Source of the DNA: an uncultured Candidatus Saccharibacteria bacterium
Lineage (GTDB): Bacteria > Patescibacteriota > Saccharimonadia > Saccharimonadales > Saccharimonadaceae
Direction: 5' to 3'
NCBI GenBank assembly: GCA_947166125.1
Contig: CAMVCW010000001.1
Coordinates: forward strand, 1-64,000
Length of the DNA stretch: 64,000 bases
Shown: piece after piece, positions 1 through 64,000 of the stretch
Numbering within the stretch: position 1 is the first letter of the stretch
How the letters are laid out: each line of letters begins with the position of its first letter
The notes under the pieces: generated by a model
Told to the model about the DNA's origin: nothing
The model's input: only the letters and a program-made list of their open reading frames with translations
Databases searched by the model: none
Translations under genes and position numbers: made by a program

Positions 1-189
1 TGTGGTGCCACTATATTAATGGGGATTAACAAAAATGGCACCGCAAGGGGTGCTACAACCTAATAACCTGCATCGACAATGTCTCTCCAAGCATTCGGCT
101 TCCTTACGGTGCCGTTGTTATGCTCAGAGATAATTGACTATAAAATATGCGGTGCATATATGTTATTAAGTTGTAGCATCTTAATTGTA
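1..189 (-). promoter_or_regulatory. FISUMP-type structured leader, copy 1 (gene lies off the left edge)
   Basis: On the minus strand a -10 box TACAAT (184-189) is followed after 5 nt by segment A (163-178), then B (102-113), A' (51-66), B' (37-48) with a T-run, and B'' (4-9). A pairs with A' over 16 positions with one G.U wobble. B pairs with B' over 12 positions with one wobble. Because the order is A-B-A'-B', the helices cross. Positions 1-49 are identical to 63909-63957. The same arrangement precedes all three FISUMP genes in the window, so a further FISUMP gene is expected to the left of position 1. Function is inferred. Confidence 0.75.
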
Positions 190-330: not shown

Positions 331-1566
331 CTAGAATTTAGAGAAGAGTTTTTTGAGGAAACCTGGAGTTTTAGGCATTTTAAAGGCCTTTTTAGCCTTT
401 TTACTACTAACTGGGACATATTGGCTCTCTTCAGCGGCAAGCATCGCTAAGCCGACAGCAGCGGCAAATTCTGGTTTCTCTATAGCATCCGCTACGCCGC
501 CTAGGCCCTTTGGTGTGCCAATTTTAACAGCGGCTTCGAGGGATTGTTTGGCAAATAAATCGATATCACGCATTTTGGCGCCACCACCTACCAGAATAAT
601 TCCCTCTGGGAGACGTTGGTCGTATTTGGCAGCTTTTAGCTTTTTGCGAATTTCACCAAAAATTTCATCTAAGCGGGCTTTGACTACTTCTTCTACTTCT
701 TTTCTATCAAATACACGTTCATCCTTGCCTTCGCGACCAATCTTGATAACTGGGGATTTTTCGGTGTCAAAATTGCCAGTGACAAAACGTTGCTTGATTT
801 CTTCGGCTAAAGTAGGGTCTATAGCTAAGACAATAGCTAGATCGTTGGTGACATTATTGGAACCGGCAGGAACTACGCCTACATATTGCAAATCGCCTTC
901 TTCGTATACGGCGATAGAGGTGGTAGCGGCGCCCATATCTATAACGGCGACACCGTTTTCTTTTTGACGATCCGTAAGCACGGCCTTGGCTGCAGCGATT
1001 ACGCTAGGAACCAATCTATCAGCGTGAACATCGGCGGCAGCAGTGGTTTTTTTAAGATTTTCACAATTAGGGGTAAGGGCGGATACCACGCAGGCGCGCA
1101 TTTCTAGCCGAGCGCCAGACATACCGAGAGGATCTTTAATCCCCCCTTGGCCATCCAGGGCATACTCTAAGGGCACTACATCTAAAACATCACGATTAGC
1201 CGGAATGCGGCCAGAGACAGCGACATCTTCTACCCTATCTAGATCTTCCCCGCTGATTTCGTGCTCTACCGTACCGACGGCAATCATGCCTTCGGTGCGA
1301 GTGGACAAAATACTAGAACCGTTGATGGAAACATAAGCATTACGGACATCGTAGCCGCCCATGCGTTCGGCCTCGCCAAGCATTTTGTCTATGGCACCGG
1401 CCGGACCAGCAAGATTAGCAGGGACACCCTTTCGCATACCGGCGGATTTACCTTCATTGTAGCCCACTACAGCAAGAGCACCATCTTTGCTAACCGAAGC
1501 AATAACGGCGCGGATATTTTCCGTACCCACGTCTAAGCCCGTAACGAAACGTTTATCGTTATCCAT
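331..1566 (-). CDS. ftsA: Cell division protein FtsA
   Basis: Actin-fold protein (411 aa) that ties FtsZ filaments to the membrane at the division site. Visible features are the N-terminal phosphate-1 motif (GLDVGTENIRA), the mid-protein phosphate-2 motif (VIDMGAATTS), the adenosine motif (ILVGGGA near residue 328) and a C-terminal basic amphipathic tail (GFLKKLFSKF) that is the usual membrane-targeting helix. A TATAAT box at 1573-1578 ends 6 nt before the ATG and no Shine-Dalgarno site is seen, so the mRNA is probably leaderless. ftsZ, the usual next gene, is not downstream; a FISUMP-type leader is there instead. Identification is firm. Confidence 0.95.
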   Translation of the reverse strand: MDNDKRFVTGLDVGTENIRAVIASVSKDGALAVVGYNEGKSAGMRKGVPANLAGPAGAIDKMLGEAERMGGYDVRNAYVSINGSSILSTRTEGMIAVGTVEHEISGEDLDRVEDVAVSGRIPANRDVLDVVPLEYALDGQGGIKDPLGMSGARLEMRACVVSALTPNCENLKKTTAAADVHADRLVPSVIAAAKAVLTDRQKENGVAVIDMGAATTSIAVYEEGDLQYVGVVPAGSNNVTNDLAIVLAIDPTLAEEIKQRFVTGNFDTEKSPVIKIGREGKDERVFDRKEVEEVVKARLDEIFGEIRKKLKAAKYDQRLPEGIILVGGGAKMRDIDLFAKQSLEAAVKIGTPKGLGGVADAIEKPEFAAAVGLAMLAAEESQYVPVSSKKAKKAFKMPKTPGFLKKLFSKF

Positions 1567-1572
1567 AAGCTT

Positions 1573-1578
1573 ATTATA
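1573..1578 (-). promoter_or_regulatory. -10 box of ftsA, leaderless arrangement
   Basis: TATAAT on the minus strand with 6 nt to the ATG, so a start site at the usual distance falls on the A of the start codon. Confidence 0.6.
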
Positions 1579-1584
1579 GCACTA

Positions 1585-2361
1585 TTAGTCTGGCAAAGTC
1601 AAAACTTCGTAGCCATCTTTGGTGACTAAAATCGTGTGTTCACAGTGGCAGCCAATGGAGCCGTCTTTCATGCGGACAGTCCAGTTGCTGTCTTCGTCTA
1701 CATAGTTGGCCGGGCGGCCAAGACAAGACATTGGCTCTATACAAATAGTGTCGCCCTCTACTAACTTGTAGCCGTGGCCGCGTTTGCCGTAGTTGGGAAC
1801 TTCGGGCTCTTCGTGCATAGTTTTGCCGATGCCATGACCAATGTAATTTTCTATCACGCCGAGATGACCTTTTTTTAGCACTTTTTCTACCGCATGGCCA
1901 ATGTCGCCGATATGAGCACCGGGTTTGACTTGCTCAATTCCTTCCCACATGGAAGATTCGGTAACCTGAATCATTTTTCTGACAGCCGGATTAACCTTTT
2001 CGCCTACAATCATAGTGAAAGCAGAATCAGTAAAATAGCCTTTATAATAAATATCTAGATCAAAGGAAACTTTGTCACCCTCTTCTAGAGGCTCGTCCGT
2101 AGGAGCGCCGTGGACTAAGGCATCGTTTACAGAAATACAGATGGCGCCAGGAAATTCTTCTTCTAGCATATCGTAGGCCACGCCAGCGCCGCGTTTCACG
2201 ATTTCTTTGCGTACCCAAGCATCAACTTCTTTGCCAGTCATACCAGGCTGGACATAATTTTTAAGATCTCTCAAGAGATTGCCGAGGATTTTGCCGCCCT
2301 CGCGCATGGCAGTGATTTTTTCTTGTAGAGTTTTGGCATCTGCAGTTTCTTTATTCACCAT
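1585..2361 (-). CDS. map: Type I methionine aminopeptidase
   Basis: Removes the N-terminal methionine from nascent proteins. The metal ligands of the family are all recognisable: the two aspartates in FDLDIYYKGYFTDSAFT, the histidine in GHGIGKTMHEEP, and glutamates in IEPM and CEHTI. The open frame reaches 2391, overlapping adk by 41 nt; the ATG at 2361 (MVNKETADAK) leaves an 11-nt overlap with the adk stop and is preferred, but 2385 is also possible and no clear ribosome site decides. It is probably co-transcribed and translationally coupled with adk. Length (about 258 aa) is normal. Identification is firm, the start is not. Confidence 0.93.
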   Translation of the reverse strand: MVNKETADAKTLQEKITAMREGGKILGNLLRDLKNYVQPGMTGKEVDAWVRKEIVKRGAGVAYDMLEEEFPGAICISVNDALVHGAPTDEPLEEGDKVSFDLDIYYKGYFTDSAFTMIVGEKVNPAVRKMIQVTESSMWEGIEQVKPGAHIGDIGHAVEKVLKKGHLGVIENYIGHGIGKTMHEEPEVPNYGKRGHGYKLVEGDTICIEPMSCLGRPANYVDEDSNWTVRMKDGSIGCHCEHTILVTKDGYEVLTLPD

Positions 2362-2944
2362 AGCTGTGCTCGATTTCTCCGCCATTAACATCTTTTTCTT
2401 GCTCGGTGGCGTTGGGATTCATTTCTTTTGCAACTTCTACCAAGCGAGCGGTAACTTCTTCTACCTGGCCTACACCATCTACACGCCGAATCGGGATATT
2501 GGCCGATTCCAGAAGTGGCAAGATTTCGTTGATATTTTGCTCGTAGATACTGAAGCGACGCTCAATACTGGCGCGTTCTTTATCATCATCGCGACCACGG
2601 AGCGCTAGGCGTTCTAATAGCTCCTCTTTGGGGACTTCTAGGATAATGGCACCGTCTAGCTTGCCGGGCATGTTGTCTATAATCCATTTGGTTTGCACGG
2701 CGTCACGCGGGTAGCCATCTAAAATTAAGTCAAAACCTTCATCTTCGGCCTTGGCAATTTGTTTTCCCATCATCTTGATGACATCTTCGTCTGGGATCAT
2801 GTTGCCCTGGTTGATAATATCGTCATATTCATTGGTTTGGCGAATAGCCTCACCTACAGATAGCCAGCGCCAACCGAAAATTTCTGCCAGGGCGCGGCCT
2901 TGAGTGCCTTTACCAGAACCTGCTAAACCAAATAGTGTAATCAT
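2351..2944 (-). CDS. adk: Adenylate kinase
   Basis: Converts AMP and ATP to two ADP in the cytosol. The N-terminus carries the P-loop (GLAGSGKGT), followed by the DGYPRD segment of the AMP-binding/catalytic core and an RGRDDDKERASIERRF arginine cluster. The LID is short and has no zinc cysteines. The last 30 residues are a polar extension. A Shine-Dalgarno AAGGAG stands 4-5 nt before the ATG. The pairing with map is the usual ribosomal-protein-locus order, but secY and the ribosomal genes are not beside it here. Confidence 0.95.
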   Translation of the reverse strand: MITLFGLAGSGKGTQGRALAEIFGWRWLSVGEAIRQTNEYDDIINQGNMIPDEDVIKMMGKQIAKAEDEGFDLILDGYPRDAVQTKWIIDNMPGKLDGAIILEVPKEELLERLALRGRDDDKERASIERRFSIYEQNINEILPLLESANIPIRRVDGVGQVEEVTARLVEVAKEMNPNATEQEKDVNGGEIEHSYGE

Positions 2945-2976
2945 TTTTCTCCTTTTTCGTTGTTTATTTTACCATA

Positions 2977-3003
2977 AAAAAGTACCCCGGTAAACGGGGT
3001 GCT
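2977..3003 (-). terminator. Intrinsic terminator of rpsU
   Basis: Minus-strand hairpin GCACCCCG-TTTA-CCGGGGT followed by ACTTTTTT, directly after the rpsU stop. Confidence 0.85.
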
Positions 3004-3004
3004 T

Positions 3005-3223
3005 TTACTTAAGTCCTAATTTGATGCGCTCGGTCTTTTCGGCCTTGCGAGCTTCGCGGATAATAGCCTTTAAGCGGCGTTCGCGCTTAGAAATAGGTTT
3101 GCTAAAGCGCATTTGCGATTTCTTAAGAGGCATCATACCACTCTGAAGAACTTTGCGGTTAAAACGACGGATAATGTTTTCGTTCGCCTCACCTTGATCT
3201 TTTCTAGTAACTTTAATAGCCAT
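3005..3223 (-). CDS. rpsU: Small ribosomal subunit protein bS21
   Basis: 72-residue basic protein of the 30S platform. The N-terminal half reads as bS21 (VTRKDQGEANENIIRRFNRKV), with an arginine/lysine-rich C-terminal helix (ISKRERRLKAIIREARKAEK). A TATAAT box at 3233-3238 ends 9 nt before the ATG and there is no ribosome-binding site, so the mRNA is leaderless or nearly so. A terminator follows, so it is a single-gene unit. Confidence 0.93.
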   Translation of the reverse strand: MAIKVTRKDQGEANENIIRRFNRKVLQSGMMPLKKSQMRFSKPISKRERRLKAIIREARKAEKTERIKLGLK

Positions 3224-3300
3224 ATTGGTGGTATTATATCACAGGTTCGGAGATATGGCAAGGGCGTAAAGTGACTCGTGCGGTTCTAGTTATTAGAATG

Positions 3301-13870: not shown

Positions 13871-15556
13871 TCATCGGGCGAGGCAGCGGATGGACCTTCC
13901 TGCAAACTTACGAAGTAACCGGTTAGTATCATGGATTGGCCAGGCATTAGATTTGTTGAAACGCAATAGATAAGCATTTGCGTAGCTGTTTACGGTGTTT
14001 GACCAATAATAGCCGTTATTTCCTGATTCTCTTAACACGGCATCAATATAGCCTGATCGGGAAAAATAAAGTGGTTGATGTCGGATAAGATTGAAGCCGT
14101 CTATCGAATAAGAAGTGTCTGATGAGCTGTCTAAAATGTTTTGCGCGGCCAACAACACGCCAAATTCGTTCGATATAGTCGTTGGCAGTCTCCAACCTTT
14201 CGGGCAAATAGAATCCATGGCAATGGTGCTAGCAGTAGAATAACTAGAAGAATTATTTGAGGCTATGGCCGCCGTCCAGTTATAATAGTTACCTACGTGA
14301 TAGTGTTTGCATTCTCCTTCTGTATGGCCTGCAGACGTACAGTTAGATAATGAAGTATATTTTATATCATCTGCTTCCGAGTTAGATGTATAGTAATATA
14401 CATCACCTGGGTCTGCAGAGTATGGGTAATCAGTTTGGTTAGACCAATCAGAAACAGAAGTACCATTTATTGGTAGGTTATATTTACCATTAGTAGTGTC
14501 TGGTGTCCAGGTGGCATTAGTGTCAAAGTTGTTTGTATCCCAGCCTAGGTCTGTGTCGTTATGGGTGTAGGTTCTGGTGGTGTCTATATCAAAGTCTAGG
14601 TTCTGCGTCATCCAACAATGCCCGTCCTTTAGCTTAGTTACATAATATAGCTTATTGTCTCGTATGTCTACTAGTTGGGTAGTAGTGGCTTCTCCGGTTC
14701 TAGTGACGGAATTGCATATATCACTAGTCATATCCTGCATAGCAAAGTAATAATTGTTGTCTATGCTTTGATATTTTTGTTTGCCGGTTGTAGCAAAAGC
14801 GGCATCTATGTCCGGTATAGTATTATGGGAGTCATTATTTGGATGTATCATTAAGTATTTTGCCCTCCCCTCATAACTTCCAGCAGGCTGTACCGAACTA
14901 GCATAGATATTATATGTAGTATTAAAGTAAGAACCAGCAATATCAGTATCTATAGTCATATTAGTACCAGAAGTTCTAGAAGCTACTAAGGTATAACTAC
15001 TTGGTACTGCATTATAGCTATTATAACTATTCATAATAGTAGGTGGGGTTAAATCACTAATACTACCAGTACCTACTCCTGGGGTTAGTTTCATACCCCA
15101 AAAGGAAGGAGTAGAAGTATCTATATTATTACCATTAGCATATGCCCCGGTATGTATATTATAGTGTTCATCTATATCACTAACTAAGTCTGTATTACCA
15201 TCTGCATTATTACTAGTTCCTATAGCATAGATACTATAACCATTATTATCATTACAATATGTATTAATCCTAGTATCACCTATGCCTTCTTCATATTGTC
15301 CACCATTAAGCGATGCATTATGTGGAGTAATGACAGAACTACTTAATGTGCAAGATGTAGAGAGGGTGAGGGTGACGCTGTCTGAACCAGAGTTGGTGGC
15401 GGAACTATGAAGAGAAGATAAAACTATAGCGGAAATAAAGATTAGTGGAATACCAATTACTAATATATTGCGGAAAGTATAGTAGAAGAAATCTGTATAA
15501 TTATTGGTTTTATTACTTTCTACTTTTATTTTAGACTTTGTGGTACTATAACCCAT
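13871..15556 (-). CDS. FISUMP-domain surface protein 1
   Basis: 561 aa. The ATG at 15556 (MGYSTTKSK) is chosen because AAGGTG lies 6-7 nt before it and because the product then matches the N-terminus of the paralogue at 62271. A membrane helix at about residues 25-45 (TFRNILVIGIPLIFISAIVL) exports or anchors it. A beta-rich outer region has paired cysteines (STSCTLSS, TYCNDNNGYSIYA). The C-terminal 260 residues are the Fib_succ_major domain: MQDMTSDIC, DGHCWMTQNLDFD, HYHVGNYYNWTAAIASN, CPKGWRLP and a final RSIRCLAR. Probably a cell-surface adhesin or recognition protein. The stop is TGA. Confidence 0.88.
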   Translation of the reverse strand: MGYSTTKSKIKVESNKTNNYTDFFYYTFRNILVIGIPLIFISAIVLSSLHSSATNSGSDSVTLTLSTSCTLSSSVITPHNASLNGGQYEEGIGDTRINTYCNDNNGYSIYAIGTSNNADGNTDLVSDIDEHYNIHTGAYANGNNIDTSTPSFWGMKLTPGVGTGSISDLTPPTIMNSYNSYNAVPSSYTLVASRTSGTNMTIDTDIAGSYFNTTYNIYASSVQPAGSYEGRAKYLMIHPNNDSHNTIPDIDAAFATTGKQKYQSIDNNYYFAMQDMTSDICNSVTRTGEATTTQLVDIRDNKLYYVTKLKDGHCWMTQNLDFDIDTTRTYTHNDTDLGWDTNNFDTNATWTPDTTNGKYNLPINGTSVSDWSNQTDYPYSADPGDVYYYTSNSEADDIKYTSLSNCTSAGHTEGECKHYHVGNYYNWTAAIASNNSSSYSTASTIAMDSICPKGWRLPTTISNEFGVLLAAQNILDSSSDTSYSIDGFNLIRHQPLYFSRSGYIDAVLRESGNNGYYWSNTVNSYANAYLLRFNKSNAWPIHDTNRLLRKFAGRSIRCLAR

Positions 15557-15583
15557 ATGCATCACCTTGTTTAATTTCTTAAT

Positions 15584-15775
15584 CTTTGTGATGCCATTTT
15601 GTGTAAACGGGGTAGTATTACAAAAATGGCACCGCAAGGGTGTTACAGCCTAGTAATTGCATTAGCGTAAACTAACCAAAACTTAGCTCCTTACGGTGCC
15701 GTTTAAATTTTGATTAATTTACAAATTAAAAGCACTAATGCTCTTAATTTACTAGACTGTAACATTTTTATTATA
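15584..15775 (-). promoter_or_regulatory. Structured leader of FISUMP gene 1, copy 2
   Basis: TATAAT (15770-15775) is followed by A (15749-15764), B (15689-15700), A' (15641-15656), B' (15628-15639) plus T-run, and B'' (15586-15602). A-A' pairs 16 of 16 positions with one wobble, extended by GCATTAG/CTAATGC further inside. B-B' pairs 12 of 12 with one wobble. B'' can pair with B' and its T-run with few defects. Relative to copy 1, helix A has paired changes at two positions. Both wobbles are G.U only on the minus strand, the transcribed one. Confidence 0.85.
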
Positions 15776-15839: not shown

Positions 15840-16634
15840 TTATTTGGCGAGGTAGGCGATTTTGGCGTCGCGGCGGGCGTCGTCGTCCTTTTTTGGCAAA
15901 TCTTCGCGAGTGGAATATTCATCAAAAATATTTAGGCAGCCTTTGATGGGACCGTCGTAGATAGGTGGTTTATCATATACACTCCAGAGGATAATACGGT
16001 TTTCTGGTGCGTTCTTGACGTAAAAATCTAAGGCGTGCGAGGTGGCACGGACGAATTCTTCCTCGGTTTCTTTGGTGTGGCGCCAAGCGCGGCCGGCTAA
16101 GAAATGCGCAGTCACGGTGGGAGACACGGCAATCATGAGAAGTAGCATTTGGTAATTGGTAGCTTTCAAAGTTTTCAAGAGCATAGCTTCAATCTCTGGA
16201 TCTAGCAGAGTAACATCCAGAATAACATCATACCCGCCTTTAAGAAGTTCGGTAAGGGTGAGGAATAGCATAATAGTGGCGAATTCGTCTGTCATTTTGC
16301 GAAGGTTAGCATCGCCATAAAAATCTTTAATTTCCTGGTAGTGGGGGTGATATTCTACGAAACGGCGCGCGGCGACTAGGATAGGCTCGTAATCGTTTTT
16401 CTCGCAGTAGGCTTCTACGGCGGGGAGAATTTGAGTGGTTTTACCAGAGCCAGAAAGCCCAGCGATGCGAATAAACTGGCGATTTTTGGTGGCAGCGAGA
16501 GTAAAGTCTGCCAAAGCCTTTTCTATAAGTGCCGGATATTCTACCAAGCCAACCTGCCACTCGGGCTTGACCTGACTAGGCCAATGGGCCTTCATGTACT
16601 CAATAACTTTAATTAAATCTGGATTTTGTTGCAT
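15840..16634 (-). CDS. Zeta-toxin-like P-loop kinase
   Basis: 264 aa. Walker A GLSGSGKTTQ at about residues 59-68, then an aspartate-ending strand (GGYDVILDVTLLDPE) in the Walker B position and an arginine-rich lid (AGRAWRHTKETEEEF). The layout resembles zeta-toxin or related UDP-sugar and nucleoside kinases. No epsilon-type antitoxin is adjacent, so a housekeeping or unknown kinase role is as likely as toxicity. It follows the lipid kinase gene by 8 nt and shares its transcript, ending in a strong terminator. Confidence 0.65.
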   Translation of the reverse strand: MQQNPDLIKVIEYMKAHWPSQVKPEWQVGLVEYPALIEKALADFTLAATKNRQFIRIAGLSGSGKTTQILPAVEAYCEKNDYEPILVAARRFVEYHPHYQEIKDFYGDANLRKMTDEFATIMLFLTLTELLKGGYDVILDVTLLDPEIEAMLLKTLKATNYQMLLLMIAVSPTVTAHFLAGRAWRHTKETEEEFVRATSHALDFYVKNAPENRIILWSVYDKPPIYDGPIKGCLNIFDEYSTREDLPKKDDDARRDAKIAYLAK

Positions 16635-21697: not shown

Positions 21698-23332
21698 TTA
21701 GCGGGCGAGACAGCGGACCGAAAAACCGTAGTCTTTTCGACTAGGGTCTGATGGCCAAACACCACCGCTATTAAATACTAATCGGGATGCGCTAAGCTCT
21801 TGATTGATTGTGCTAGACCAATAATAGCCTATACTCATTGAATATGATAAGGTTATGATATTAATGTATCCCGATCGCACAAAAGACACTGGCATGCTTC
21901 TTATGGCCGTAATGTTTTCTGGTTTTATATCATAAGTTGTAATAAGATCTTTAAAATCGTTTGTAGATGTTTTTGGCAATCTCCACCCCTTAGGACACAC
22001 AGAATCCGGCGCATCCCCACTCATTATTTCACTCGTATCATTACTCCCCACTGCAACACTCCAGTTATAATAATTCCCGGCATGATAATGCGCACAATCA
22101 TTATGTCCTGCTACTGTGCATTCTTGTAATGAATTATACTTAATATCATTTTCTTCTGTTCCTGACGTATAGTAATATATATCTCCAGGATTAGCGGAAT
22201 ATGGTTCTGTATTACTATTAACCCATCCTGGTACTTGGTTGGTATTAGCTCCATCAAAGTCAATAGTAGAGTGGCTAGGTTTCCAAGTGGCATTTTCATC
22301 TACAGTGCTACCATCTTCTGTACTCCACCCTAAATCCGTATCCCAGTGAGTATAGGTTCTATTACTATCTAGATCTAAATCTAAGTTCTGTGTCATCCAA
22401 CAATGATTATCTGCTAGTTTAGATATCCAGTATAGTTTGTTATCTCTTATATCTAATACTTGTAATTGTGCTCCTATAGCTTCTGTCTTTTCACATATAG
22501 TAGATGTCATATCCTGCATAGTATAGTAACCGTTAATCATAGTCTTACCCTCACTCGCATAGGCTTCACTTAGAGTAATGGATGTAGGTTTAGTGGTAGC
22601 ATAAAAGTTAATGGTTCCAGTATAGACTCCGGAGGGTTGGGCATTGCTGGCTTTAGCTGCTATCTTGAAACCTATATTATTAGAAACGTTACTGCTAGTA
22701 TCCAACAATATAGCATTATTACTATTAGCCAGACCATTATAATTAGACCAAGTGGTACTATTATCCAGTGAAGTAGAGTAGCCCCAAATATTAGTGTCTT
22801 CACCGTCATCTAAACTAGATAAGTCTGCATTAGTAGCTATACTACTAAATACACTAGTATTATTAGTATGAGTTAGATTACTATTGTTGTGAATATCATC
22901 GCCTATATTAGCAGATAGTGTATACCCATACGCTGCATTAGTAGCAACACTTACATTAATACTATTACTATCTTCTATACTACCAGGAACTAGATTAGGA
23001 ATAACTAAGTCATTAGAACTAAGGCTAATAGACAATGTAGGATTAAAGGTAAACCCTATACCTACATTACTAGAATAGTCTAAGGCAGAGACATTGGAAT
23101 TATTAAATATATTAGAAGAACATAATGTCATGTTTGTAAAACTTAACATTATGATTAATGAAGCTAAGGTTATGTTTTTAAATCTTAAGGTTAAGATTTT
23201 TTCCTTATCTGTTAAATGGCTTGTTATGTTTCTATAAAACGATATTAAGTTCTTAAGATTAAATGTTAAGAATTTATACTTCAATGTTATGTTTCTAATA
23301 TTGAATTTTATGTTATTTTTATTATTCCGCAT
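21698..23332 (-). CDS. FISUMP-domain surface protein 2
   Basis: 544 aa from the ATG at 23332 (MRNNKNN); the open frame continues 150 nt upstream but there it runs through the structured leader. GGAAGG lies 11 nt before this ATG. A long basic N-terminus has four RNIT/KNIT-like repeats and contains a hydrophobic helix (LASLIIMLSF). A beta-rich region (VATNAAYGYTLSANI, QPSGVYTGTINFYA) precedes the C-terminal Fib_succ_major domain (MQDMTSTIC, DNHCWMTQNLDLD, CPKGWRLP, FSVRCLAR). The N-terminal half differs from the other two copies. Confidence 0.87.
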   Translation of the reverse strand: MRNNKNNIKFNIRNITLKYKFLTFNLKNLISFYRNITSHLTDKEKILTLRFKNITLASLIIMLSFTNMTLCSSNIFNNSNVSALDYSSNVGIGFTFNPTLSISLSSNDLVIPNLVPGSIEDSNSINVSVATNAAYGYTLSANIGDDIHNNSNLTHTNNTSVFSSIATNADLSSLDDGEDTNIWGYSTSLDNSTTWSNYNGLANSNNAILLDTSSNVSNNIGFKIAAKASNAQPSGVYTGTINFYATTKPTSITLSEAYASEGKTMINGYYTMQDMTSTICEKTEAIGAQLQVLDIRDNKLYWISKLADNHCWMTQNLDLDLDSNRTYTHWDTDLGWSTEDGSTVDENATWKPSHSTIDFDGANTNQVPGWVNSNTEPYSANPGDIYYYTSGTEENDIKYNSLQECTVAGHNDCAHYHAGNYYNWSVAVGSNDTSEIMSGDAPDSVCPKGWRLPKTSTNDFKDLITTYDIKPENITAIRSMPVSFVRSGYINIITLSYSMSIGYYWSSTINQELSASRLVFNSGGVWPSDPSRKDYGFSVRCLAR

Positions 23333-23372
23333 CCTATATATACCTTCCGCCTTAATTAAGGTTTTAATTCGG

Positions 23373-23544
23373 TTGCGGTGCCATCTTTGTAATATATGAA
23401 AAGGCGTATACAAAAATGGCACCGCAAGGTTGCTATAGTCCAACGATAGTTTCACCAATCGAAAGACACCTCGCGATGCCATTAAATTTGGCGAAACAAT
23501 CGTTCTATTAAAAATAATCGTTGAACTATAGCAACTTAATTATA
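23373..23544 (-). promoter_or_regulatory. Structured leader of FISUMP gene 2, copy 3
   Basis: TATAAT (23539-23544), A (23517-23534), B (23469-23480), A' (23430-23447), B' (23418-23429) with T-run, B'' (23373-23391). Helix A differs at most positions from copies 1 and 2 but still pairs 18 of 18 with one wobble. B has two substitutions, both giving G.U pairs with the unchanged B'. B'' matches B' and its T-run over 19 nt with one mismatch, forming a stem that competes with B-B'. Confidence 0.87.
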
Positions 23545-62270: not shown

Positions 62271-63866
62271 CTAGCGGGCGAGGCAGCGGACAGAAAAACC
62301 AAATCCCCTATTGTTCCCGTCGTATTGGTCGTATATGTAATACCCAACTGGGTTCATATTATTATCAATGCGTAAATAGTACGCACTTTTGTCACCATTA
62401 AGTGTGCTAGATTGGTAAAAACCTATTAATCCAAATTGTTTTGTATCCCCGCTCACTATTAAACCAGACTTATTGAACCATATTGGTGATGTTGGCGAAT
62501 TACGATAATAGTACTTTAAATTGGCAAAATCATTATCGCCGGAATAGTAATTGGAATACTCTGTAACTATAGGTAATCTCCAACCTTTAGGGCAAATGGA
62601 ATTGTGCGGGTTATTTGATACGTTGTTAAAAGTGCTTTCTATTAAATTAGTTGAATTGTTGGAGGCGATTGCCGCAGTCCAGTTGTAATAATTACCGATT
62701 AGCCCATGGTTATTACTAATGTATGTAGCATATGACTCTCCAATATTTAGAGAATATGGTTTATTATTGTTGTTTTTCCAATTAGTCCTATTCGCATTAG
62801 TAAGTGTAGAGCTAATCGGGGTCCACTTTATTACATTATTTTCTATATTGTACCCATCCTGATAAGCTGCACTGGTAGCGTCGTTTAAATCTGTATCCTC
62901 AGATGTAAGAGCTACGCTACTGTCTAGGTCTAAATCTAAGTTTTGGGTCATCCAGCAATGTCCATCTAGGAGTTTGGTGACCCAGTAGGTTTTGTTGTCT
63001 CTAATGTCTACTAATTGCACTTGAGATGCTTCGCCAGTAATATTGGCGGCATTACAAATATTGGTAGTCATATCTTGCATTTTGTAGTAGCTATTAGTCT
63101 CTCCAGTAGTAGGGTCTACTATGTCTACTTTGGTTTTACCAGCTAAGAAGAAGGCTCTTTCTAATGTAGTAGGAGAGATGGAAGAAGATGGATGAAGCAA
63201 AGCAAACTTCACCTGTCCAGTATAAGTACCAGCTGGTTGAGTTCCTTTAGTGTATATAGCATAGGTAGTAGTAAAAGTAGAACCTTCTTGCATATCAAAA
63301 GTACCAGGATCTCTAGATGCTACATTGGTCCAAGTATTTGGTATTAAGCCATAGGTATTATTGTATTCTGCTGGGATAGTAGGAGTATAATTGCCGGCTA
63401 CTGGAGTTAATTTCATGGCCCAACTAGATGTATCCTCACCGGTAGAAGGTTTAGATGTGTTTAGTCCAGTAGGAATATCGTAGTCTTCACCTAGATCTAT
63501 GGAAGATAAGGTATTCTTACCATCTATATCGTTAGTAGAACCTATGGCGTAGATAACATAACCATCTTTATCGTTGCAGGTAGTCTTCATGGTGGTTTTA
63601 CCAATATTGTCTTTATAAGTTCCAGATATCATAGAAATGGTATGCTCACTATTGATGGTAGCATTAAGAGTGCAAGATACTGGTATTGATAATGTAACCT
63701 TATCTACACCAGAGCCATCTATAGCAGAAGAATGAGAAATCCTAAAACCAAGTACAAAAGCAGAAACAGCTAGAACAACAACAGAAACTAACAATACATT
63801 ACGGAAAGCATAGTAGAAGAAGTCTATTCTACTACTCATTAAAGATTGTTTTACTTTGTGGCCCAT
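62271..63866 (-). CDS. FISUMP-domain surface protein 3
   Basis: 531 aa. The ATG at 63866 (MGHKVKQSL) has GTGAGG 8 nt upstream. A membrane helix at about residues 20-42 (AFRNVLLVSVVVLAVSAFVLG) is followed by a beta-rich domain with cysteines (PVSCTLNATINSEHTISM, TTCNDKDGYVIYAIGSTND) closely related to FISUMP protein 1, and by the Fib_succ_major domain (YKMQDMTTNIC, DGHCWMTQNLDLDLD, IGNYYNWTAAIASNN, CPKGWRLP, GFSVRCLAR). Proteins 1 and 3 differ most in the middle of the FISUMP domain, as expected for a ligand-binding part. Confidence 0.9.
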   Translation of the reverse strand: MGHKVKQSLMSSRIDFFYYAFRNVLLVSVVVLAVSAFVLGFRISHSSAIDGSGVDKVTLSIPVSCTLNATINSEHTISMISGTYKDNIGKTTMKTTCNDKDGYVIYAIGSTNDIDGKNTLSSIDLGEDYDIPTGLNTSKPSTGEDTSSWAMKLTPVAGNYTPTIPAEYNNTYGLIPNTWTNVASRDPGTFDMQEGSTFTTTYAIYTKGTQPAGTYTGQVKFALLHPSSSISPTTLERAFFLAGKTKVDIVDPTTGETNSYYKMQDMTTNICNAANITGEASQVQLVDIRDNKTYWVTKLLDGHCWMTQNLDLDLDSSVALTSEDTDLNDATSAAYQDGYNIENNVIKWTPISSTLTNANRTNWKNNNNKPYSLNIGESYATYISNNHGLIGNYYNWTAAIASNNSTNLIESTFNNVSNNPHNSICPKGWRLPIVTEYSNYYSGDNDFANLKYYYRNSPTSPIWFNKSGLIVSGDTKQFGLIGFYQSSTLNGDKSAYYLRIDNNMNPVGYYIYDQYDGNNRGFGFSVRCLAR

Positions 63867-63908: not shown

Positions 63909-64000
63909 TGTGGTGCCACTATATTAATGGGGATTAACAAAAATGGCACCGCAAGGGTGTTACAAGCTAATGATTTGCGCCAATTGAACTAACCCAAATC
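63909..64000 (-). promoter_or_regulatory. Structured leader of FISUMP gene 3, copy 4 (partial)
   Basis: B'' (63912-63917), B' with T-run (63937-63956) and A' (63958-63973) are visible; B, A and the promoter lie beyond the window. B'' is in the loop of a CCCCAT/ATGGGG hairpin. Bases 63909-63957 are identical to 1-49. Confidence 0.75.

Follow-up and report, generated by a model that had tools for sequence, protein, structure and literature searches.

What kind of element precedes the FISUMP genes in this Saccharibacteria DNA, and does its structure act as RNA or as DNA? The window, by which we mean the whole stretch of 64,000 nucleotides analyzed here, belongs to a genome of 817 kb in 8 contigs, denoted as G000; genome-wide reading of G000 and its relatives covered the stretches around matches. 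In the initial annotation, a leader with strands A, B, A' and B' in crossing order was described in three complete copies, at 1-189, 15584-15775 and 23373-23544. On the minus strand, which is the gene strand, we found the parts of these copies as described, with A paired to A', 12 of 12 pairs between B and B', and a T-run. All three copies are present, but they are not the full number: a fourth window copy is cut at the window end, and the genome contains 39. The 20-nt core of the leader occurs in G000 in 33 exact copies and in 39 with at most two mismatches, and the reversed control pattern of the core gave no copies there. The parts are listed in Table 1, in which the gene of copy 1 lies off the contig end. 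A zeta-toxin-like kinase gene (15840-16634) is located directly upstream of copy 2 on the same strand.

Table 1. Leader parts and the genes behind them in the window.
Feature	Position	Strand	Remark
Copy 2, -10 box	15770-15775	-	TATAAT
Copy 2, P1 5' strand (A)	15749-15764	-	begins at about +1
Copy 2, P2 5' strand	15735-15741	-	
Copy 2, P3 5' strand	15704-15723	-	
Copy 2, B, apical loop	15689-15700	-	GGCACCGUAAGG
Copy 2, P3 3' strand	15666-15685	-	
Copy 2, P2 3' strand	15659-15665	-	
Copy 2, P1 3' strand (A')	15641-15656	-	
Copy 2, 20-nt core	15620-15639	-	B' 15628-15639 and A, U5 15622-15626, GU
Copy 2, C element, alternative partner of B'	15588-15602	-	ACAAAAUGGCAUCAC
FISUMP gene behind copy 2	13871-15562	-	TIGR02145, 55 bits
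Copy 1	29-189	-	-10 box 184-189, P1 162-180/49-67, P2 150-156/69-75
Copy 1, continued		-	P3 120-130/84-94, B 102-113, core 29-48, C 4-10
Copy 3	23410-23544	-	-10 box 23539-23544, P1 23517-23534/23430-23447
Copy 3, continued		-	P3 23488-23497/23449-23458, B 23469-23480, core 23410-23429
Copy 3, C element	23371-23390	-	ACAAAGATGGCACCGCAACC
FISUMP gene behind copy 3	21698-23332	-	TIGR02145, 41.8 bits; start inferred from Shine-Dalgarno sequence and spacing
Copy 4, cut by window end	63910-64000	-	C 63910-63919, core 63937-63956, A' from 63957
FISUMP gene behind copy 4	62271-63866	-	TIGR02145, 52 bits

On the gene strand, the -10 box is followed after 3-6 nt by the 5' strand of P1, a few nucleotides, the 5' strand of P2, a U-rich linker and the 5' strand of P3. 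The apical loop with B comes next, then the 3' strands of P3, P2 and P1, 0-3 nt, B', an A, five U residues (U5) and GU; about 20 nt further on, a C element precedes the Shine-Dalgarno sequence and the start codon. B is RAAYGGCRCCGYAAGG followed by NNNC, and B', which directly follows P1, is CCUUGCGGUGCC. Frequently, the U-rich linker folds into a small hairpin of its own, P2.1, whose loop contains UUUUA. Thus, A and A' of the earlier A-B-A'-B' hairpin are the strands of P1 (14-21 bp), but P2 and P3 had been overlooked and B sits in the apical loop. The loops and junction of the leaders before FISUMP genes (FISUMP type) are nearly without conserved bases, the exceptions being B, B', the U-rich linker and the C after B. 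The -10 box is present in 39 of 39 G000 copies and is extended (TGN) in 32, and A begins within about 2 nt of the +1 position predicted from it, as had been proposed. A same-strand gene lies behind the leader in G000 wherever the contig continues, and a Shine-Dalgarno sequence with a start codon was found 13-75 nt downstream of the leader at 17 of 19 further loci. The position between promoter and start codon is therefore consistent, as in structured cis-regulatory leader RNAs. At L014, L024 and L147, leader and gene start are separated by inserted DNA of about 100-200 nt with strong inverted repeats.

To evaluate the fold, we compared pairing with several controls. Over 13 positions, P1 is paired at all 13 in 36 copies and at 12 in the other 3, a level (12/13) reached in 0.15% of shuffled leaders and in 5% of combinations of strands from different copies. 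A covariance model built from 14 copies (R1) recovered all 39 G000 copies together with relatives in other genomes, and 85 R1 matches from about 14 genomes served as the covariation set. For model building, the stems were delimited with a script and filled up with N, and long loops were cut; the pair counts therefore lean toward the segmented structure, with sliding, shuffling and the comparison of close relatives as guards, and on these terms 95.1% of pair cells in the 85 copies are standard against 54.3% after shuffling. Double-change cells numbered 988 against 285 in shuffled leaders and occurred in 29 of 29 pairs, so that the covariation first seen between window copies holds in a larger alignment. 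When the partner strand was slid by 1-3 columns, pairing fell to 33-41%. In an independent family of 27 leaders of a second, single-copy type, paired cells amounted to 95.5% versus 63% and double-change cells to 188 versus 50. Among close relatives, compared mostly at orthologous loci, pairs changed on both sides were kept in 98 cases and broken in 22, while 34 both-sided changes in all would be expected if sites were independent. Compensatory changes, the mark of a structured cis-regulatory leader RNA, are thus evident, and a conserved secondary structure of the leader is near certain. Aligning raw leaders with MAFFT misaligned the stems, and RNAalifold on one such alignment gave only B-B'.

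The initial annotation had taken every residual mismatch for a G.U pair on the gene strand, which does not hold strictly: C opposite A beside B is common, and there are a few A.C mismatches. Still, wobble pairs outnumber A.C mismatches on the gene strand by 155 to 10, which identifies it as the folding strand. By itself this ratio cannot separate RNA from a folded single strand of DNA, and the further step to RNA is argued for by the promoter, the +1 position, U5, the Shine-Dalgarno sequence and the orientation.

Since B' is nearly invariant within G000, other genomes were needed to test B-B'. There, B' appears as CCUCGCGGUGCC, CCUCGUGGUGCC, CCUUGUGGCGCC, CCUUAUGGUGCC and CCCUGUGGUGCC, and B changes along with it, from G-C to A-U as well as from A-U to G-C. 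Of 92 FISUMP-type copies, 72 have 12/12 pairs and 17 have 11/12. In the 27 single-copy leaders, B-B' is paired in 99.1% versus 91.0% of cells, with 21 versus 7.9 double-change cells, and one pair is G-C in 15 leaders, C-G in 10 and U-A in 1. The nested best fold retains P1 in 39 of 39 copies, and a nested fold with B-B' costs a median of 10 kcal/mol more. The crossing order had been read as either a pseudoknot or two exclusive folds; the retention of P1 and the covariation of B-B' favor the former and disfavor the latter. Given the conservation of both P1 and B-B', the leader is most naturally read as a pseudoknot, if both form, and the helix lengths would be compatible with P3 stacked on B-B' beside P1-P2.

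The U-run directly behind the B-B' helix, another part of the original description, has exactly five residues in 83 of 92 copies. A GC-rich helix directly before a U-tract is what characterizes an intrinsic terminator, and B-B' with U5 shows this arrangement. U5, kept in nearly all copies, is conserved more strictly than the opposing A-run, which favors a terminator over mere pairing. A standard terminator scan did not call the B-B' site, because its loop is long and crossed. In addition, the end of A' and B' can form a local hairpin, which is short in the FISUMP type (median -7.5 kcal/mol) and stronger in the single-copy type (GACACC-UUGC-GGUGUC-GUUUUU, -9 to -10 kcal/mol). Either B-B' or this local hairpin could be the predicted terminator.

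The downstream C element, complementary to B', had been overlooked. A B-like sequence recurs after the U-run, for instance ACAAAGAUGGCACCGCAACC at 23371-23390, and it is chiefly C that competes with B for pairing to B'. Of 54 downstream types, taken from several genomes, 31 have a B'-C pairing that surpasses 99% of shuffles, and B' is paired with C in the best fold for 36 of 36 full-length G000 leaders. B'-C is thus a competing pairing incompatible with the predicted terminator helix, as attenuators have; it is insignificant in some genomes, and as G251 is one of them, C is a lineage-specific part. In genome G014 (L102-L105), C repeats the locus-specific 5' strand of P1 in 4 of 4 loci read (GUGUUCA, UGUCUAU, GUGUUCG and UGUUACAA), so that its competition there would be for A' and not for B'. 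In some cases, such as GCAUGAUC/GAUCAUGC in G009, sequence beside C clearly covers the start codon. As a general feature, a relay of B-B', B'-C and C-start pairing that occludes the start codon looked convincing by eye, and we rejected it on its weak support (13 of 54 at the 10% level).

Based on these pairings, we lean toward the leader being a cis-acting attenuator of a class absent from Rfam, in which B-B' beside U5 would terminate transcription and read-through would let C capture B'. In the nascent leader, P3, P2 and P1 would fold first, and B' would leave the polymerase beside its partner B. The B-B' helix, directly beside U5, would then bring about termination (off); if B-B' is blocked or forms too slowly, transcription would pass U5 and C would be made, whereupon B'-C could form, dissolve the pseudoknot and commit the RNA (on). 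Sequences next to C may, in some lineages, cover the start codon as well. The switching and its signal are deduced from sequence, and a ligand, a protein, an RNA, temperature or chance are candidate inputs that might tip the balance.

The window proteins behind copies 2, 3 and 4 match TIGR02145 (FISUMP) above cut-off, and 30 of the 39 G000 leaders stand before such a match. Five others end at a contig edge, and FISUMP fragments beginning at contig edges are equal in number. At L025, L038 and L045, the leaders precede ends that are FISUMP-like by eye and give no TIGR02145 match, and at L044 the shared N-terminal part is joined to a different C-terminal domain. The tie between leader and FISUMP genes is therefore strong, but the claim that every FISUMP gene has the leader does not hold: three intact FISUMP genes lack one and have their -10 box close to the start. 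Elsewhere in the genus, the same leader type precedes FISUMP genes, so the link extends to other genomes as the annotation had proposed. A diversity-generating retroelement was noticed at L206 (G000:C3:19500-22800), where 1113-3227 holds an RVT_1 reverse transcriptase of 388 aa, an accessory-like ORF (235 aa) and a FISUMP end that is rich in Asn and resembles the template repeat. Compared with this repeat, its closest target gene, L027, is changed at 28 of 57 positions with A in the template and at 16 of 123 others, and some leader-borne FISUMP genes are probably targets of this element. One survey of such retroelements (PMC4159848) reportedly names the FISUMP domain, and we found no paper joining FISUMP with Saccharibacteria in the literature searched.

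A covariance-model search of other Saccharibacteria, the check suggested in the initial annotation, was positive in many families. Within the genus, the leader occurs in 73 of 174 genomes, several of which carry at least 17-18 copies, and R1 also matched single-copy leaders outside it, both in other genera and in other families; one R1 match, L130, was spurious by eye. A second model, R2, was built from only six single-copy leaders of other genera and families, and still finds 12 G000 copies (best E 1e-8), from which we take the FISUMP and single-copy types to be homologous. In the order, R2 matches 57 of 295 genomes and 35 of 143 genera; outside it, there is a strong match elsewhere in the class (G583, 7e-18) and, beyond the class, two plausible ones (G629, G316). 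Weak phylum-level matches near E 0.005 were at chance level and were set aside. Genes behind the single-copy type are varied and include DUF4352, DUF4190, OmpA-like and small membrane proteins and DNA methyltransferases; at L153 and L186, in other genera, the leader lies directly ahead of DNA methyltransferase genes (N6_N4_Mtase; EcoRI methylase family). The named FISUMP-type records are uncultured Saccharibacteria, with cattle, goat and sheep gut as stated sources. Rfam 15 gave no match at gathering or E-value thresholds, and no regulatory RNA that came up in our literature searches was described as specific to Patescibacteria. This is apparently a new class of leader RNA, which is spread over the order and seems to extend beyond it.

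The leaders of G000 are mutually unlike, with no pair above 0.74 identity. Their mean identity is 0.77, near the shuffle level of 0.73, and that of the 150 nt after the core is 0.92 in the main downstream type. Orthologous leaders of close relatives are bimodal: in 8 of 29 comparisons they are 95-100% identical and in 19 they are 56-78% identical, with 83-99% identity in the 120 nt upstream of these 19. Leaders are replaced between near-identical flanks at L012/L270, L016/L294 (flanks about 90% identical), L026/L271 and L032/L262, and the downstream type switches beside an identical leader at L010/L266 and L012/L287. Discrete alleles are shared incongruently among G000, G744, G752 and G675; the L012 allele, for example, is common to G744 and not to G752, and L032 stands apart from three relatives. 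We sought the source of the diverged orthologs in exchange between loci within one genome, and no donor was found among 124 leaders, the relatives being incompletely sampled. Recombination anchored at B' and at the promoter would explain the allele pattern simply, and selection for distinct stems is possible. Assemblies tend to break just after the leader core, as at the contig ends of G000 C1-C5 and of many G005 and G012 contigs, and the break point is the start of the shared downstream DNA.

Such exchange invites the view that the leader is a palindromic hotspot of DNA recombination or replication, its structure kept by the mutation process and not by RNA function. The swapping of modules at B' between loci and strains, the replaced leaders, the clustered changes of both arms, which resemble template switching, and the breaking of contigs at the core all agree with it. 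Copying of one arm onto the other, however, would not retain the excess of G.U over A.C and leaves B-B'-C unexplained, and the fixed distance to the -10 box, the gene orientation, U5, the Shine-Dalgarno sequence and the same fold in single-copy forms of other families also argue against this view, which we hold to be very unlikely. Most improbable in our estimate is regulation in trans, where terminated RNAs from the 39 loci would cross-regulate or answer one common RNA: a B' that is near-invariant within a genome and differs between genomes, beside stems unique to each locus, would suit it, but, given the identities above, the invariance is accounted for by gene conversion of the stretch that runs from B' into the gene, and an unsystematic look noted no separate complementary RNA beyond the leaders.

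Two further alternatives accept a cis-acting RNA. In a riboswitch or protein-binding leader, a small molecule or protein bound by the three-way/pseudoknot fold would set B-B' against C or against the local A'-B' terminator hairpin. The single-copy type is suggestive here, as it keeps the unpaired bases UAAGCA/UAAACA after B and GUGAAUGG opposite P1/P2, precedes varied genes, many for membrane proteins, like ligand-sensing leaders, and has the compact terminator-like hairpin of GACACC and GGUGUC. The FISUMP type, on the other hand, has no evident pocket and almost no conserved loop or junction bases, and no Rfam riboswitch matches; we consider this explanation possible, if on the improbable side. 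A constitutive protector of the mRNA end, or insulator, in which P1 blocks decay and B'-C frees the ribosome site with no switching, would fit the start of P1 at about +1 in all copies, the long near-perfect stems and the folding of full-length RNA as P1-P3 plus B'-C. As a plain hairpin would suffice for this, the B/B' covariation and the adjoining conserved U5 go unexplained, and it appears unlikely. The attenuator thus remains our preferred reading. With considerable reserve, one may extend it to a family of mutually orthogonal RNA switches in one genome, with shared B, B' and C and private stems, through which only a few out of dozens of retroelement-diversified surface proteins would be expressed at once, the stems being under diversifying or balancing selection. 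On this doubtful extension, stems would be diversified because cross-pairing would couple loci, and selection on them would be seen as the discrete alleles shared incongruently between species.

With 39 copies in a 0.8-Mb genome, or about 1 per 20 kb, the leader is abundant, and if it works as proposed, it controls the surface-protein repertoire of these epibionts. It would offer a handle on how reduced bacteria choose among their many paralogous surface proteins, some of them diversified by a retroelement, and an example from nature of an RNA in which selection acts almost only on the fold, the sequence being almost free to vary provided the folds are kept.

Among known systems, attC sites of integrons share with the leader sequence-variable, structure-conserved palindromes beside exchangeable genes. 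However, attC sites lie at the 3' end of cassettes, whereas the leader is 5' of a gene with its own promoter, has the crossing pairs B-B' and B'-C and occurs as single copies without cassettes; no R or L boxes were seen by eye in the leaders. T-boxes likewise have a sequence like UGGCACCG that pairs with a downstream strand, then a U-run. No Rfam T-box matches the leader, though, UGG is replaced by CGG in many copies, and the genes behind are those for FISUMP, membrane or other proteins and not tRNA-synthetase or amino-acid genes. In preQ1, SAM-II, fluoride and ZTP riboswitches, a loop-to-tail pseudoknot stands beside a terminator or ribosome site. The leader has a predicted pseudoknot of this sort in common with them, but its stems are much longer, no conserved pocket is evident in the FISUMP type, no Rfam entry matches, and a genome can hold tens of copies. 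Attenuators with mutually exclusive hairpins, such as the leaders of amino-acid operons, share a structured leader, a helix abutting a U-tract and an alternative partner for one strand. Here, in contrast, no leader peptide is seen, the presumed terminating helix is crossed, from hairpin loop to 3' tail, and the competitor C lies after the U-tract, so that it can act only once read-through occurs. Taken together, an attenuator-like leader is of a kind already known; what is new, as far as the literature searched and Rfam show, is its architecture and the way it has expanded on a family of surface proteins.
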